Positions 2,463 through 45,405 of a DNA stretch of 49,410 nucleotides are shown piece by piece. The DNA is taken from the IMG/VR virus record IMGVR_UViG_3300044629_001167, positions 1 to 49,410 of that record; one strand, written 5' to 3'. Origin of the DNA: a virus. A model generated the notes under the pieces. That model ran no database searches, was not told where the DNA came from, and worked only from the letters and a program-made list of their open reading frames with translations. The translations under genes and the position numbers were made by a program. How positions within the stretch are numbered: position 1 is the stretch's first letter; each line of letters opens with the position of its first letter.

Positions 2463-4766
2463 ATGAGCAACATCAACAAGAACTCGAAGAGCATCTTCGC
2501 CCGCATGCTTGCGACCGAAGATCTGAATGTCGTTCACTCGCAGGGTGCTAACACCGCTGCGTTTGATCTCCAATCCCGCACTCTTATTCTTCCCGTGTGG
2601 AAGGACATGCCAGACTCGCTGTACGATATGCTTATCGCACATGAGGTTGGGCATGCTTTGTTCACCCCCGGTGGCAAGGAGTGGAGCAAGATCGCCAAGG
2701 AAATCTGCCCTGAGAATCCCACTGTTGGACAGGTCTACCTCAACATCGTTGAGGACGCTCGCATTGAGCGTATGATTCAGAAGAAGTATCCCGGCTCCAA
2801 GCGTGACTTCTGGTTTGGTTATCAGGATCTGCTTGAGCGTGATCTTTTTGATATCGGCGACAAGGATCCGTCTGAGTTTTCTTTTGCCGATCGGCTGAAT
2901 CTTCACTTCAAGTTGGGTTCGCAGATTGATATCGGTGAGTTCTCTGATGAAGAGCAAGTTATTATTGACCGTATCATGATTGCCGAAACTTGGCAGGAAG
3001 TCGTGAGCATTGCCAAGGAACTTTACGCCATCACTGCTCGCGAGTTTGAGAAGCAGATGGAGTCAGAGGCTATTGAATTTTCTGCAGATGTTGAAGAAGA
3101 GCAGAGCGGTGATTCTGATTCTACTTCCTCTAATGATCAGGGTCAGGTTGTCTCTGCTCCTACCAAGGAAGAGAACAAGGCGAATGAGGAGAACCAGAAT
3201 AATGCCGGGTCTGGTGATGGTATCACGATTGTTCAGGGTACTGGCGACATCACCGTGAATGTGGTTCAGCCTTCCACCACTCCGTCGAATGGTAAGGAGG
3301 GCGGACCCATGAATCAACCTCCTGTCACTCAGGTTGCCATGGAGAACAATCTCAAGCAGTTCGTCAACAGTTCCCCTGAAAAGAAGGGATACAACAAGCC
3401 TGTTGTCATGAGCGAACCGGATCTTGATTATGTCATCGTTCCTCAGAACAAGATTCTTGACAGTCTCATTCGTTTCCGTGAAGAGGCTATTGGTGACTCA
3501 ACCCATGTTCGTGACATGTATCAAAATGCTTATGGAAAGGTCAAGGATTCTGTTATCGAATTCCAAAAGTCTGCCAAGTCTTCTGTCGATCTTCTTTGCA
3601 AGCAGTTTGAGATGAAGAAAGCTGCAGATCTTCATAAGCGTACTTCTCAGCGTACCACTGGTGTCCTGAACATGGATAAACTCCATGCGTATAAGGTCAC
3701 GGATAACCTATTCCTTCAGCGTAATGTCACGAAGAACGGAAAGAATCACGGTCTTTTGATGTTTGTTGACTGGTCTGGTTCGATGGGTCCGACGATGGGT
3801 GATACTCTTCGTCAGATGATGGTGCTGATGATGTTCTGCCGTCGTTGTGAGATTCCATATGACATCTATGCTTTCTCCTCGTCAAATCCGTACTACTACG
3901 GGAATACCGGTATGACTGATATGAGGTGGGCTAACACCGACGAATTCATGGATGAGGTGTGGCATCTTCAACAGCGAGATCATTTCATCAACATCAACCG
4001 CAGCATGTTTTCTCTGTTCCATCTCTTCTCTTCGACTAACGACAAGAACAGTGAGATGGAAATGCTTGTCCAGTGCTTCGGTTATGTTGCTGGTTATGAA
4101 CGGGATTCAAATCAGGTGTTGAAGACGAACTTCGCTAACTTCATTCCGTCTTGGTTCCAGTTGAATTCGACTCCTCTCAACGAAACTCTTCTGTCTGCTC
4201 CGCAGATCTTCAAGATGTTTGTCGAAAAGCACAAGCGTGACATCAACCATATCGTTCTTCTCACCGATGGAGAGGCTTCTGGTTGGGTGATTCCGAATGG
4301 TCCGTATCTTCTCGATCCCAAGACTAGGGGTCGTTATGATACGACTTATGACCAGACCAGTAAGGGATTGTATTTGCACCAGAGGGAAACTCAGGCTCTT
4401 GTGAATTGGGTGCGTGATCGTACTGGTGCGAATATTGTGTGCATTGAATTGACCAATCAGGCAGGCTTTGCTCACAATGTGTTCTGGAGTAACGATGACA
4501 ATGGCAACAAGGATTTGAATCTGAACAAGGAAGCACAGTCTCAATGGAACAAGGAGTCCTACTGCGAGGCTTCCCAGACTAATCATGCCTATGATTCGTT
4601 CTTCATTGTCAAGGCAAAGAACGCGGTCATGGTGGACGATTTTGAGGATATTGACACCACTAACATGACTCCAAGTAAGATCAAGAACCAATTCATCAAG
4701 TACCAGAAGAAGAAGTACATGAGTCGGTACATGATCAACCGATTTGTCGAAATGATCGCTGCTTAA
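2463..4766 (+). CDS. CobT-like protein: HExxH domain plus C-terminal VWA (MIDAS) domain
   Basis: 767 aa. N-terminal HEVGH at residues 60-64, with NIVEDARIE at 94-102 downstream, fits a zinc-binding HExxH...E arrangement. A low-complexity acidic/Ser/Asn linker (about 190-290) follows. The VWA domain begins near residue 430 with the MIDAS motif DWSGS at 436-440 and has a later LLTDGEA strand (about 600). VWA proteins paired with a MoxR/CobS ATPase form metal-insertion or remodelling complexes; a phage role in metal handling or protein maturation is inference. Codons resemble those of cobS and of the major capsid gene rather than the AT-rich neighbours. A strong terminator follows at 4770-4795, so it is a single-gene transcript. 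It starts MSNINKN, much like the ATPase's MSNNNDN. Confidence 0.8.
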   Translation: MSNINKNSKSIFARMLATEDLNVVHSQGANTAAFDLQSRTLILPVWKDMPDSLYDMLIAHEVGHALFTPGGKEWSKIAKEICPENPTVGQVYLNIVEDARIERMIQKKYPGSKRDFWFGYQDLLERDLFDIGDKDPSEFSFADRLNLHFKLGSQIDIGEFSDEEQVIIDRIMIAETWQEVVSIAKELYAITAREFEKQMESEAIEFSADVEEEQSGDSDSTSSNDQGQVVSAPTKEENKANEENQNNAGSGDGITIVQGTGDITVNVVQPSTTPSNGKEGGPMNQPPVTQVAMENNLKQFVNSSPEKKGYNKPVVMSEPDLDYVIVPQNKILDSLIRFREEAIGDSTHVRDMYQNAYGKVKDSVIEFQKSAKSSVDLLCKQFEMKKAADLHKRTSQRTTGVLNMDKLHAYKVTDNLFLQRNVTKNGKNHGLLMFVDWSGSMGPTMGDTLRQMMVLMMFCRRCEIPYDIYAFSSSNPYYYGNTGMTDMRWANTDEFMDEVWHLQQRDHFININRSMFSLFHLFSSTNDKNSEMEMLVQCFGYVAGYERDSNQVLKTNFANFIPSWFQLNSTPLNETLLSAPQIFKMFVEKHKRDINHIVLLTDGEASGWVIPNGPYLLDPKTRGRYDTTYDQTSKGLYLHQRETQALVNWVRDRTGANIVCIELTNQAGFAHNVFWSNDDNGNKDLNLNKEAQSQWNKESYCEASQTNHAYDSFFIVKAKNAVMVDDFEDIDTTNMTPSKIKNQFIKYQKKKYMSRYMINRFVEMIAA

Positions 4767-13525: not shown

Positions 13526-14038
13526 ATGAAAAAATTTCAAGATCTAAAAAAACATTTAAATGAATCCGAATACTCCGAGGGTGGGGGATTTAATGCTGCG
13601 TATGACGGAACTACCAGTCGATCGGCAGCAAGCGATTTCGGAATCTTCAGAGTCGAAAATCCCACTCAAAGAACTAAGCTACAAGCCTTTTTAAATGCTT
13701 TTTCTTCTAGAGATTATCTAGATCCTAGATCTGCAATTGCTCTTTTACGAGCTAAATTAAACCTTGCAGGATTGGATTTTGATTTCCATCCTGGTATACC
13801 TTTGATGGTCGATACTCCCATTCAATTTCCATTGACAAAATTTGGTGGAACATTCGGAACCAGTCCCACTCATGATTTATCAAAAGGATTTGAAAGAACT
13901 GATGGTATTTCTCAACTTAATGGAGGAAGGGGTTTGGCTTTGAATGTCATGGTAAATAACTCTGGTGATACTGGATTATTCAAATTTACTATAAGACTGG
14001 AAGAAACACAAAACAATAAAACTCCTAGCAAATTGTGA
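13526..14038 (+). CDS. Conserved-type T4-like phage protein, possibly head-associated
   Basis: 170 aa from the ATG at 13526, which has TAGAGG at good spacing; an in-frame ATG at 13502 overlaps the upstream gene and lacks a site. The N-terminus MKKFQDLKKHLNE|SE has L-N-E at 11-13, again compatible with prohead-protease cleavage. The body (FGIFRVENPTQRTKLQAFLN, LDPRSAIALLRAKLNLAGLD, and FGGTFGTSPTHDLSKGF) resembles a hypothetical protein recurrent in marine T4-like phages, as far as I recall. Function unknown. The stop overlaps the GTG start of the next gene (GTGA). Confidence 0.6.
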   Translation: MKKFQDLKKHLNESEYSEGGGFNAAYDGTTSRSAASDFGIFRVENPTQRTKLQAFLNAFSSRDYLDPRSAIALLRAKLNLAGLDFDFHPGIPLMVDTPIQFPLTKFGGTFGTSPTHDLSKGFERTDGISQLNGGRGLALNVMVNNSGDTGLFKFTIRLEETQNNKTPSKL

Positions 14039-14415
14039 GATACGATAAATTAAACGAAGATAATTTTCTTCTCTATGCAATAAAACATTATGAAAATCCA
14101 TCAAATCCTACCATGGAGGATTTCATGGAGGATATGGAAAGAATTAAGTACATAAAAAGACTTTTAAATAAGTTTGAAAAGAAAGATTCGTTAAAAGAGA
14201 GATTAATATTAAATCATATCATAGTTTTAAATAATGTATTGGGTGCTGAGGCGACATCTAGAATATTGTTTTATAAGTTAGAAGAGGAATACCATTCATG
14301 TCTAAAGTCTTTTCTGGAATACCTGCAGATTTTGCCGATGAAAATTCCAGAGGTAGACTTGACGAAGATACCAACGGACCATCGAGTGGATCAGTTGCTA
14401 AAAATAATAACTTAA
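14035..14415 (+). CDS. Conserved hypothetical protein of marine T4-like phages
   Basis: 126 aa from a GTG overlapping the previous stop. The pattern DNFLLYAIKHYENPSNPTME, then RIKYIKRLLNKF, LKERLILNHIIVLNNVLG and ATSRILFYKLEEEYHSCLKS is characteristic of a small helical protein widespread in marine T4-like phages with no assigned role. Its last 118 bases overlap the next gene in another frame, so this stretch is read twice. No transmembrane or metal motif. Confidence 0.7.
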   Translation: MRYDKLNEDNFLLYAIKHYENPSNPTMEDFMEDMERIKYIKRLLNKFEKKDSLKERLILNHIIVLNNVLGAEATSRILFYKLEEEYHSCLKSFLEYLQILPMKIPEVDLTKIPTDHRVDQLLKIIT

Positions 14416-14903
14416 ACGAATCCATTTCTGGTGTAGTTACCTCATTTACGGTTTACAAATTATTAACAGAGCTGATAAAACCAATAACTGCTCTTCGTGC
14501 ATATAAACTTAAAATAATAGATGAAAGATGCAATTATTTAAAAGATCCCGATTCTGTCAATTTGAGTCCATTTGATCGTATGGTTATTGGAATAAAAAGA
14601 TTGATTCTTTCAACCGGATCATCAAAACTTCGAGCAGATTATTCATATTTTCAGACTGCTGCAAAAGCAATGGCATTTGAGTGTGTAGAACTTGGTGGTG
14701 ATGAAAAATTGTTCCTTGAAGAAATATACAAATGTGTTGATGTTCTTCTTGAAGATGGAGAAGCAGCGGGAAATGCAATTGGGGGAGGATTTTTAAATCC
14801 TCAAGTTGGCGAAGCAAATCCTGCTTTAGCAGGATACTCACCCCCACTGGGATTAAAACGAAGAACTAAAAAGGAGTTAAGAGATGTCATTATTAAGTCC
14901 TGA
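14298..14903 (+). CDS. Unknown protein carrying a copy of the capsid-protein N-terminal arm
   Basis: 201 aa. The N-terminal 40 residues are low-complexity, with LNE|S near 41; the middle is helical (VYKLLTELIKPITALRAYKL, FDRMVIGIKRLIL). Residues 162-182 read FLNPQVG and ALAGYSP and match residues 61-81 of the major capsid protein at 18 of 21 positions. The tail (LKRRTKKELRD) then diverges. AGAGGAA precedes the ATG. It overlaps the previous gene by 118 bases and the holin-like gene by 20. This segment is the predicted start of the mature capsid protein, so the protein probably interacts with capsid or scaffold; the exact role is unknown. Not a simple DNA duplication, because codons differ at most shared residues. 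Confidence 0.65.
   Translation: MSKVFSGIPADFADENSRGRLDEDTNGPSSGSVAKNNNLNESISGVVTSFTVYKLLTELIKPITALRAYKLKIIDERCNYLKDPDSVNLSPFDRMVIGIKRLILSTGSSKLRADYSYFQTAAKAMAFECVELGGDEKLFLEEIYKCVDVLLEDGEAAGNAIGGGFLNPQVGEANPALAGYSPPLGLKRRTKKELRDVIIKS
14781..14843 (+). other. Segment mimicking the mature N-arm of the major capsid protein
   Basis: These 21 codons correspond to 44119-44181 of the capsid gene. Identities are GG, FLNPQVG, AN and ALAGYSP; the three differences are Gly/Ala, Glu/Ser and Pro/Asn. Most shared residues use different codons, so protein-level selection or old divergence, not recent copying, explains it. Confidence 0.8.
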
Positions 14904-41728: not shown

Positions 41729-42255
41729 GCACCCCAAATATAATAAAATTAGTCGCTGAAGAGAATCATATTAAATTTCGTTCTCTTGTAAACGATATGC
41801 TGTACTCAAAACTCTCAGAAAGCATCTCAGATAAAACTACTAATATCTTAGCATCTATTTTTGATGCTGAATTGGTAGAGGAAAAAGATGATAATAAAAA
41901 ACCAGATGCCGATGGTGATGGTGTACCAGACTGGGCAGATAAAAAACCCGGCAAAGATGACAATGAAGATGATGACGATGATAAAGACGAAGACGAAGAT
42001 GATGACGATGACAAGAAACCAATAAAAGAAGCTAAAAAATACAAAAAAGATGAGGATGAAGACGAGGACGAGGAGGAAGATGAAGAGGAAGATGAAGACG
42101 AGGAAGAAGATAAAGATGAAGATGAAGAGTCTGAACAAAATGTCCACATAGACATTGTAAAAGGTAAACACGAAAGCGATCCCGGCGATGAAAAACCAAT
42201 GGGAAAGAAAAAAGGTAAGAAGAAACTAGTATTCAAGAAGAAAGGCAAAAGATGA
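41725..42255 (+). CDS. Acidic putative prohead core protein with Ca-binding-like motif
   Basis: 176 aa. A helical N-terminus (NHIKFRSLVNDMLYSKLSES, about 15-34) is followed by a long Asp/Glu tract (about 75-145) and a Lys-rich C-terminus (MGKKKGKKKLVFKKKGKR). DADGDGVPDWADKKPG (about 61) matches the DxDxDGxxD calcium-binding loop of thrombospondin type-3-like repeats. T4 gp67 (PIP) is a small acidic core protein at the same map position, so this is a likely functional counterpart. It overlaps both neighbours by ATGA. Function inferred from context and composition. Confidence 0.65.
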   Translation: MSTPNIIKLVAEENHIKFRSLVNDMLYSKLSESISDKTTNILASIFDAELVEEKDDNKKPDADGDGVPDWADKKPGKDDNEDDDDDKDEDEDDDDDKKPIKEAKKYKKDEDEDEDEEEDEEEDEDEEEDKDEDEESEQNVHIDIVKGKHESDPGDEKPMGKKKGKKKLVFKKKGKR

Positions 42256-42911
42256 AATTAATAACAGAAATGGTAGAGGATGTTGCTTGCATTACCGAAG
42301 CTACTGATTCTGGTAAAAAGAAGTATTTCATCGAAGGAACATTCATGCAAGCAAATACCGTTAACAGAAACGGTAGAGTCTATCCTTCAACAATTCTTGA
42401 AAACGAAATTTCTAGATACAATAAAAACTATGTCTCTCAGAGCAGAGCTTTGGGTGAGTTAAACCATCCATCAGGACCAACCGTAAATCTAGATAAATGT
42501 TCCCATTTAATAACAAAACTAGTTTCTGAAGGTAATAATATTACAGGAAAAGCTAGTTTGCTTGAAACTCCCTGTGGAATAATTGCACAAAGACTTGTAG
42601 ATGCAGGGGTTAAACTCGGAGTGTCGTCAAGAGGAATGGGTAGCTTAAAGGAAGCCAATGGTTACAAAGAAGTTCAAAAAGACTTTACTCTTTCTGCAAT
42701 TGATATTGTTGCCGATCCCTCTGCTCCAAATGCATTCGTAAACGGAATCATGGAAGGTGTGGAATGGGTATGGGACAATGGTATTCTGAAGCAAGAAGTA
42801 ATCGAAAACTACAAAAAAACCGTAAAGAAAACTCCATCTAGATTGATGGAAAAAACAGCAATTAACTTATTTGAAGATTTTATGACCAAATTATCTTCAG
42901 GTAGAAAGTAA
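42252..42911 (+). CDS. 21: Prohead maturation protease gp21
   Basis: 219 aa (T4 gp21 is 212). FIEGTFMQANTVNRNGRVYP, then ALGELNHP with the catalytic His72, and GVSSRGMGS with the catalytic Ser125/126, followed by LSAIDIVADPSAPNAFVNGI, define the herpesvirus-like serine protease of T4-type phages. It cleaves scaffold, core, capsid and internal proteins after (L/I)-x-E, then degrades itself. Its own N-terminus MKLITE|M carries such a site. Overlaps the acidic core gene by ATGA. Confidence 0.92.
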   Translation: MKLITEMVEDVACITEATDSGKKKYFIEGTFMQANTVNRNGRVYPSTILENEISRYNKNYVSQSRALGELNHPSGPTVNLDKCSHLITKLVSEGNNITGKASLLETPCGIIAQRLVDAGVKLGVSSRGMGSLKEANGYKEVQKDFTLSAIDIVADPSAPNAFVNGIMEGVEWVWDNGILKQEVIENYKKTVKKTPSRLMEKTAINLFEDFMTKLSSGRK

Positions 42912-43938: not shown

Positions 43939-45405
43939 ATGGACTTTCAAGGAACTACCCCTTACGATACATTAGTAGAAAAATGGGCTCCAGTGCTCGA
44001 TGCTGAAGCACTGCCCTCAATCGGTGATTATCACCGCAAGCGTTGCACTGCTGTCCTTCTTGAGAACCAAGAAAAAGCACTGCGTGAACAATTCCTCACC
44101 GAATACGGCAACGAAATGGGTGGAGCATTCCTCAACCCACAAGTTGGCTCTGCAAACAACGCTCTCGCTGGCTATAGCCCTGTGCTTATCAGCCTCGTTC
44201 GTCGTGCAATGCCCAACCTGATTGCTTATGATATTGCTGGCGTGCAGCCAATGACTGCTCCGACCGGTCTTATCTTTGCAATGCGTTCTCGTTACGGCAC
44301 ACAATCAGATTACACCAGCGGCAATGCTTTTGATGCCGATGGTATCGCTACCAATCGTAGCAAGAATGAAGCTCTCTTCCAAGAACCATGGGCTGCATTC
44401 TCAGGCCAAGGAAACACCCTTACCGGTGCTGCAACACTTGCAAACGAAAACAAGGATCCCTTCTGGTGGAGAGGTCTCTGTGGTGCAGGTGGAACCTTTG
44501 GTGGTTACACTGCTGCTACCGGCGTTACCCTCTTCGAAGCATTCCGTGGTATGCTCACCAAAGATGCAGAACAACTTGGTAACTCTGGAAAGAACTTCCA
44601 AGAAATGTCATTCAGCATCGAGCGTCTTGCAGTTGAAGCTCGTAGCCGTGCTCTCAAGGCTGAATACACCACCGAACTCGCTCAAGACCTCAAGGCTGTT
44701 CATGGTCTCGATGCCGAAACCGAACTCGCCAACATCCTTTCACAAGAAATTCTCCACGAAATCAATCGTGAAGTTCTTGCTACCGTTTATCGTAACGCCA
44801 AGAAAGGTTGCGTCCAAGGAGATCTTAAGTCAGACGGTGCATACGACCTAATCTTCGACTCAGACGGTCGTTGGTCAGCAGAACGCTTCCGTGGTCTCAT
44901 GTTCCAAATCGAACGCGAAGCCAATGTCATTGCCAAGGAAACTCGCCGTGGCAAGGGTAACTTCGTAATCTGCTCAAGCGATGTTGCTTCAGCACTCGCC
45001 ATGGGTGGATACCTCAACATCTCACCGGCACTCAATGTCAACCTTGAAGTTGACGATACCGGTAATGTGTTCGCTGGTGTTCTTAACGGCAAGTTCCGCG
45101 TCTACATCGATCCCTATGCACCAACCGGCGTTAACTTCGCTGTTGTTGGATACAAAGGACAAATCGCATACGACGCAGGCTTGTTCTACTGCCCCTATGT
45201 CCCGCTACAAATGTTCCGTTCAGTCGGACAAGATACCTTCCAACCGAAGATTGGCTTCAAGACCCGCTACGGCATGGTCGCCAACCCCTTCGCTGAAGAT
45301 GTCAACCTCCGCGTTCCATCAGGAAACGGAAAGAATCAATACTACCGTATCTTCGAAGTCAAGAACCTCCACGGTCAAGGCTTGACCGCTGGTTTCAGCT
45401 TCTGA
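43939..45405 (+). CDS. 23: Major capsid protein gp23
   Basis: 488 aa (T4 gp23 is 521). LVEKWAPVLDAEALPSIGD at the N-terminus, FLTEYGNE|MGG at 52-62 as the probable gp21 cleavage zone (aligns with the LTEAE|IGG site of T4), and LVRRAMPNLIAYDIAGVQPM at about 86-105, near-identical to T4, plus VNLRVPSGNGKNQYYRIFEV near the C-terminus. It forms the hexamers of the head. Codon use is strongly biased to C-ending codons, unlike most neighbours, as expected for the most highly made protein. AAGGAG precedes the ATG; a strong terminator follows. Confidence 0.95.
   Translation: MDFQGTTPYDTLVEKWAPVLDAEALPSIGDYHRKRCTAVLLENQEKALREQFLTEYGNEMGGAFLNPQVGSANNALAGYSPVLISLVRRAMPNLIAYDIAGVQPMTAPTGLIFAMRSRYGTQSDYTSGNAFDADGIATNRSKNEALFQEPWAAFSGQGNTLTGAATLANENKDPFWWRGLCGAGGTFGGYTAATGVTLFEAFRGMLTKDAEQLGNSGKNFQEMSFSIERLAVEARSRALKAEYTTELAQDLKAVHGLDAETELANILSQEILHEINREVLATVYRNAKKGCVQGDLKSDGAYDLIFDSDGRWSAERFRGLMFQIEREANVIAKETRRGKGNFVICSSDVASALAMGGYLNISPALNVNLEVDDTGNVFAGVLNGKFRVYIDPYAPTGVNFAVVGYKGQIAYDAGLFYCPYVPLQMFRSVGQDTFQPKIGFKTRYGMVANPFAEDVNLRVPSGNGKNQYYRIFEVKNLHGQGLTAGFSF

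Follow-up and report, generated by a model that had tools for sequence, protein, structure and literature searches.

Why should a protein that is not a capsid protein carry, close to its C-terminus, a near-copy of the segment with which the mature major capsid protein of the same phage begins? The question is raised by P0001, a 201-aa protein encoded at positions 14298–14903 (plus strand) of the window, i.e., the whole 49,410-nt stretch of viral DNA that was analysed (IMG/VR virus record IMGVR_UViG_3300044629_001167).

The copied segment and the family of its carrier

The major capsid protein, gp23, is encoded at 43939–45405 (plus strand; PF07068, 1.3e-137; phrog_138), and the copied sequence is its mature N-terminus, residues 56–81 (44104–44181, plus strand), as delimited by alignment to T4 gp23. 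Residues 158–182 of P0001, GNAIGGGFLNPQVGEANPALAGYSP (14769–14843, plus strand), are identical at 20 of 25 positions to residues 57–81 of the phage's own gp23, GNEMGGAFLNPQVGSANNALAGYSP. The 18 of 21 identities reported in a preliminary description of this DNA for residues 162–182 and 61–81 were found again on recounting, and lie within this longer match. A search of the whole window with P0001 returned the protein itself and gp23 (44104–44208; E value 2.7e-9) and nothing else. When the gp23 arm was compared by Smith-Waterman alignment with the 482 window frames of at least 40 codons, gp23 scored 139, the P0001 frame 106, and the next frame 35. No Pfam family, PF07068 included, was matched in a search with P0001, and the gp23 arm is the sole part shared. 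The flanks had been described as unrelated, which holds for the N-terminal domain but not on the C-terminal side, where a faint echo, SPxLxLxRR, is found in both proteins. Beyond the copy, the body of gp23 is replaced in P0001 by a basic tail (14844–14900, plus strand), with 7 K/R and 2 D/E among the last 20 residues. Of the 20 shared residues, 6 are encoded by the same codon and 14 by a different one, with 48 of 75 nucleotides identical; the similarity thus either goes back far or has been maintained at the protein level. These codon differences, along with conservation across phage families, favor an old divergence, so that the earlier exclusion of recent copying can be upheld. Judged from these comparisons, there is strong support for mimicry of the capsid arm by a protein that is not itself a capsid protein.

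The copied stretch corresponds to the N-fist of T4 gp23, residues 66–91; T4 gp23 is cleaved after E65. Based on comparison with T4 gp23 and about 70 related gp23 sequences, the gp23 of the window is most likely cut at FLTE55/Y56. The site suggested in the preliminary description, GNE/MGG, lies four residues further downstream. The N-fist has been defined in structural work (PMC7136217, PMC9958956). The N-terminal region of gp23 is disordered in the prohead and lies on the outer surface after expansion, when the N-fist contacts four subunits in two capsomers (PMC9958956). In the structure of the portal vertex, the N-fist is disordered in the five portal-facing gp23 subunits (PMC7136217).

The family of P0001 can be assigned independently of the copy, because residues 43–118, which lie outside it, match phrog_2086 (E value 8.4e-9) and phrog_18642 (E value 3.8e-8). 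These profile matches identify P0001 as distantly homologous to T4 gp61.1. The long form of this T4 protein is represented by phrog_2086, which RB43 gp61.1 and the Mosigvirus homologue match at 2e-67 and 9e-73, respectively, and the short form by phrog_1823; the 54-aa T4 gp61.1 itself matches the C-terminal third of phrog_2086. Members from phages phiM12, DLP_6, RHph_I9, OLIVR5 and Melnitz are also matched by phrog_2086/18642. A scan of viral contigs with P0001 directly found no relative, while a search with the Mosigvirus homologue returned 1,432 phage records. In the records of gp61.1 homologues that were seen, the product is named hypothetical or, in several, major capsid protein, a label we attribute to the copy of the gp23 N-terminus.

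The gene for P0001 is overlapped at its 5' end by a DUF7207 gene (14035–14415, plus strand; PF23837/phrog_407). In Sinorhizobium phage phiM12, too, the homologue is preceded by a DUF7207 gene, as are the corresponding genes of Melnitz-3, P-HM2, and Syn19. Among the window genes, which are partly annotated, no primase was identified beside P0001; its position next to DUF7207 is that found in phiM12 and the cyanophages. In the Straboviridae, the gp61.1 gene lies beside helicase 41 or primase 61, a position that is not common to all members. DUF7207 (phrog_407) often adjoins the mimic gene in phages other than the Straboviridae, and might be a partner of its product.

Copies in other phages and their own gp23

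The search for further proteins that pair such a segment with the gp23 of the same genome, proposed in the preliminary description, yielded many gp61.1 homologues as well as other genes at the same locus. In the Straboviridae, the gp61.1 tails approximate GDSGGxxxNIAxGTTSGAVxNKGP, as compared with GGDHGYxxxNIAAGQTSGAVTQIGP in gp23. The homologue in phiM12 has AVPSTNTGNI where its own gp23 has AAPTTNTGNI, and that of Agrobacterium phage OLIVR5 has MPTTSTAGIATY where its own gp23 has TPTTQTGGIAKW. In Methylophilales phage Melnitz-3, the gene with the gp61.1 domain is devoid of the copy, which is found in the product of the next gene, Melnitz_30 (DAPANASGSAV, against AAPTNSTGSAV in gp23). A search of P-HM2 with its own gp23 arm identified PHM2_171, in which ITNVGPINTQTTGKGAIMGFDPILG corresponds to PTNVGPINTQTTSAGAVDGFDPILI of gp23 with 72% identity over 29 aa (E value 2.3e-9). 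The product of the same locus in Syn19, Syn19_180, contains TAGTGGFSGSAPATGPNAGFDPI, its own gp23 TLQTTGYTGASTATGPVAGFDPV; more than 80 metagenomic homologues of Syn19_180 were found, several of which could be paired with their gp23. Weaker matches to the phage's own gp23 were obtained for DLP_6, RHph_I9 and Caulobacter phage Cr30. For G045 and Atu_ph04 the own match is not significant, and among the 12 arms their own takes rank 7 and 6, respectively. No protein with a gp61.1 domain was found in the two cyanophages searched, S-PM2 and P-HM2, and a second copy of the gp23 arm was not detectable in S-PM2. Searches with phrog_3286, considered as a possible short form, gave no match in two cyanophages or in the marine contigs tried.

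For a statistical evaluation, all carriers were scored against all gp23 arms, and the sum over the true pairs was compared with that of random pairings. Among 12 lineages, which are not independent draws and some of whose carriers were found through the locus, none of 4,000,000 random pairings reached the sum of the true pairs. With nine lineages, the sum was reached by 7 of 362,880 pairings. Melnitz-3, whose carrier gene had been chosen after looking, was left out of one test (7 of 40,320), and omission of the window and T4 gave 7 of 5,040 (p=0.0014). Because related lineages share arm types, the test is conservative. The N-terminal domains alone gave p=0.13 for own pairing. Within the Straboviridae, the preference for the own arm is slight (897 of 200,000 shuffles, uncorrected for relatedness). 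These results show, at the level of sequence, that, across lineages, the carrier copies follow the gp23 of the phage concerned. The capsid mimicry first noted for P0001 is therefore borne out and proves far more general, extending to T4 gp61.1 and to several unrelated arm types that follow their own gp23.

Several other tails were encountered in the course of this survey. A marine subgroup of gp61.1 homologues (L187, L202, L208, L210, L213, and L215–L222) has a different tail, approximately PxNxxGGGxIAGIGVGxxGEPxVxKK, of which the first residues alone resemble gp23. In L118, the protein with the gp61.1 domain (2862–3431) ends without a copy, and the ORF that starts at 3435 contains VEEEMTTTTSVGTVSDPLDIPPKKKKRK, a predicted copy of the gp23 start of that phage. 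A 70-aa ORF near 2698 of L119, located after DUF7207, contains EEVPVNSISGGGVPSLTDPTDAYALQ and a basic tail and is likewise predicted to hold a copy of the gp23 arm; gp23 is absent from that contig. For the tails of L118, L119 and the marine type (AGIGVGxxGEP), no pairing with a gp23 and no match elsewhere was obtained. Finally, a 140-aa ORF of Aeromonas phage AsFcp_4 (L033; record positions 1469–1588) contains a gp23-like fragment, LILKAMPSLIALELTGVQPMSAPN, that corresponds to the gp23 segment just past the arm, and is another small protein with a piece of gp23.

Proposed targeting, cleavage and docking of the copy

T4 gp61.1 consists of MKTFKEFIKE, followed by DMVAGDSGGNPENISIGTTSGAVVNKGPEQIP and a lysine-rich end. 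Its first seven residues are identical to the start of the T4 ORF beginning MKTFKEFTSTTT, which we take to be IPI, and its first ten share 7 of 10 positions with the MKTYQEFIAE of T4 internal-protein ORFs of 100 and 193 aa. Sequences of the MKTYQEFIAE type are capsid targeting sequences that are removed by gp21 (PMC9026906). By its sequence, then, T4 gp61.1 is a capsid targeting sequence joined to a copy of the fist and a lysine tail. The gp61.1 of Klebsiella phage Roth01 starts with MKTYKEFVTE, and in that of kaaroe the targeting sequence is weak. A targeting sequence of this type is absent from the N-terminus of P0001, and none is recognisable in the cyanophage members. In Caulobacter phage Cr30, a gene beside the mimic gene encodes AGS80945 (L184, 2389–2709), whose first residues, MKTFKQFFNE, resemble a capsid targeting sequence and which has, downstream of them, a YHGTS ADP-ribosyltransferase-like motif (PF00644, E value 0.0018, below the cut-off); it is a candidate packaged ADP-ribosyltransferase.

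The place of the targeting sequence is taken in P0001 by an N-terminal helical domain, residues 38–156 (14409–14765, plus strand), which is homologous to the long gp61.1 proteins and which we propose to be a head-targeting or propeptide part. The AlphaFold2 model, built from 17 aligned sequences, has helices at residues 38–60, 91–105, 111–131 and 136–156, with a mean pLDDT of 63 and core blocks at 84–92. Residues 153–189, including the copy, are modelled as unstructured (pLDDT below 50), as would be expected for a segment that folds on a partner. A Foldseek search with P0001 gave no informative fold match; the best viral matches, with E values of about 1e-3, comprised some larger proteins and one from a Rhizobium phage that is similar in size to gp61.1. 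A PDB search by sequence with P0001 returned nothing useful and one for gp61.1 found no chain of this protein, the best match of T4 gp61.1 being gp23 itself (E value 0.0067).

A site for the prohead protease, LLE152/D153, is predicted just before the copy in P0001 (14745–14756, plus strand). It is of the [LIVMF]xE type, and E152 is invariant in the two closest relatives. The protease gp21 is encoded at 42252–42911 (plus strand; phrog_207 head maturation protease, 1.1e-78) and is expected to cut both P0001 and gp23. Among 27 tabulated members, 25 have an [LIVMF]xE site no more than 13 residues before the copy, usually 1–5 residues before it. The cyanophage carriers PHM2_171 and Syn19_180 have no upstream site, and their copy directly follows the initial Met. 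Whether through a site just upstream or through an N-terminal copy, each finished product would therefore begin with an N-fist, followed by a basic tail. From these features we infer that proteins of the gp61.1 type are packaged and cleaved by gp21. The preliminary description had considered P0001 as a possible decoration; because T4-type members have a capsid targeting sequence, a protein targeted to the interior and processed by the protease is more likely than one added late from outside.

We regard it as an even call that gp61.1-type proteins act in head morphogenesis by supplying a free N-fist to pockets that have no gp23 donor. The N-terminal part (the helical domain in P0001, the 10-residue capsid targeting sequence in T4) would bring the protein into the prohead, where gp21 would cut P0001 at LLE/D as it cuts gp23 at LTE/Y. 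The freed N-fist, with its lysine/arginine tail, would then fill donor-less N-fist pockets between capsomers. Docking where a capsid N-arm normally binds, as was suggested at the outset, remains the best explanation, although hypothetical. Equally hypothetical is its location around the portal vertex, which would be the only donor-less place common to all these phages, because phages without gp24 also carry the copy. Pockets near the pentamers would be donor-less only where gp24 is present, but several carriers have a single PF07068 gene. Since the N-fists of the mature capsid are on the outside, a peptide delivered internally would need to migrate as that of gp23 does. In its fullest form the proposal is tentative: the T4 gene 61.1 product and its relatives would be a head component, a stand-alone N-fist substitute that co-evolves with gp23, is released by the prohead protease, and finishes or caps the lattice at pockets that symmetry leaves unfilled, with the portal vertex as the most likely place. 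Counted against the mechanism are members in which the match to the own arm is weak or missing (G045, Atu_ph04) and the marine subgroup with the other tail. In addition, gp61.1 is not reported in any virion proteome found. The Syn19 carrier gene is annotated as hypothetical and another gene nearby as virion structural, a hint, from annotation only, that the carrier was not detected in cyanophage virions.

This apparent non-detection would suit a transient assembly regulator, the peptide of which would bind to gp23 within the prohead, or to fist pockets just forming there, delay or trigger expansion, and leave with the propeptides. The targeting sequence of T4-type members and the protease-type site are in keeping with such a role, as are the gp23 N-termini, which lack order in the prohead and reach the outside when it expands (PMC9958956), but ordered fist contacts have been described only after expansion, and we consider this rather unlikely. 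It is improbable that the copies serve as soluble decoys occupying the gp23 sensors of host systems such as CmdTAC. While gp23 does trigger CmdTAC (PMC11618068) and T4 61.1 adjoins adfA (61.2), tifA (61.4) and dmd in a possible anti-TA island (PMC9391042), an island of this kind is missing from other lineages, and neither a capsid targeting sequence nor a protease site upstream of the copy would be required by a decoy. Copies of the trigger might just as well switch the sensor on, and a PADLOC search with the window protein gave no match. No more probable is a partner of the scaffold or of the gp31/GroEL folding pathway, with the copy as a handle for a factor that handles gp23 N-termini: gp23 requires gp31 (PMC11618068) and the prohead core binds proteins with targeting sequences (PMC5694885), yet the part copied is the mature N-terminus and not the propeptide. 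Titration of gp21 by a substrate decoy is very improbable, for although the site and the residues downstream are like those of gp23 in most members, the cyanophage copy is N-terminal with no upstream site, which indicates that it is the product, rather than the substrate, that has been copied. Inert duplication, gene conversion or chance similarity, which the short, compositionally simple segment and some weak members might suggest, is largely refuted by retention of the copy in widely diverged phage families, with tracking of the own arm, by the different synonymous codons, and by the different gene that carries the copy in Melnitz-3 and the cyanophages.

Comparison with known systems

T4 is among the best-studied viruses, and its conserved gene 61.1, which has no known function, copies the capsomer-locking part of gp23. 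Should docking of the peptide in fist pockets be borne out, this would be a head component of a new kind, and the sealing of the shell around the twelve-fold portal could be tested by deletion of a single gene. In the open-access literature (subscription journals being outside the scope of the search) no account was found of gp61.1 function or of gp23 mimicry, in line with the earlier statement that the latter had not been described.

With T4 gp61.1, P0001 shares the N-terminal domain (present in the long forms), the protease-type site, the copy of the gp23 N-terminus and the basic tail. T4 gp61.1 differs in having only 54 aa and a targeting sequence in place of the domain of P0001, the copy of which follows its own gp23 and not that of T4. 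The T4 internal proteins IPI-III and Alt have in common with T4-type gp61.1, and with this type only, the capsid targeting sequence and the expected processing by gp21. Their mature forms are not gp23-like, however, and P0001 has a domain and no targeting sequence. The copy in P0001 has the sequence of the gp23 N-fist but is not accompanied by the HK97-fold body of gp23 and gp24; gp24 is a full-length paralogue, and that of T4 is without the fist. The cyanophage T4-GC 426 and 538 proteins (Syn19_180; PHM2_171, phrog_4187) are encoded at the same locus, by DUF7207 and near the gp61 primase. In them, too, the N-terminus of the own gp23 is copied and a basic stretch comes next, although the copy is N-terminal and the remainder of both proteins is unrelated to gp61.1.
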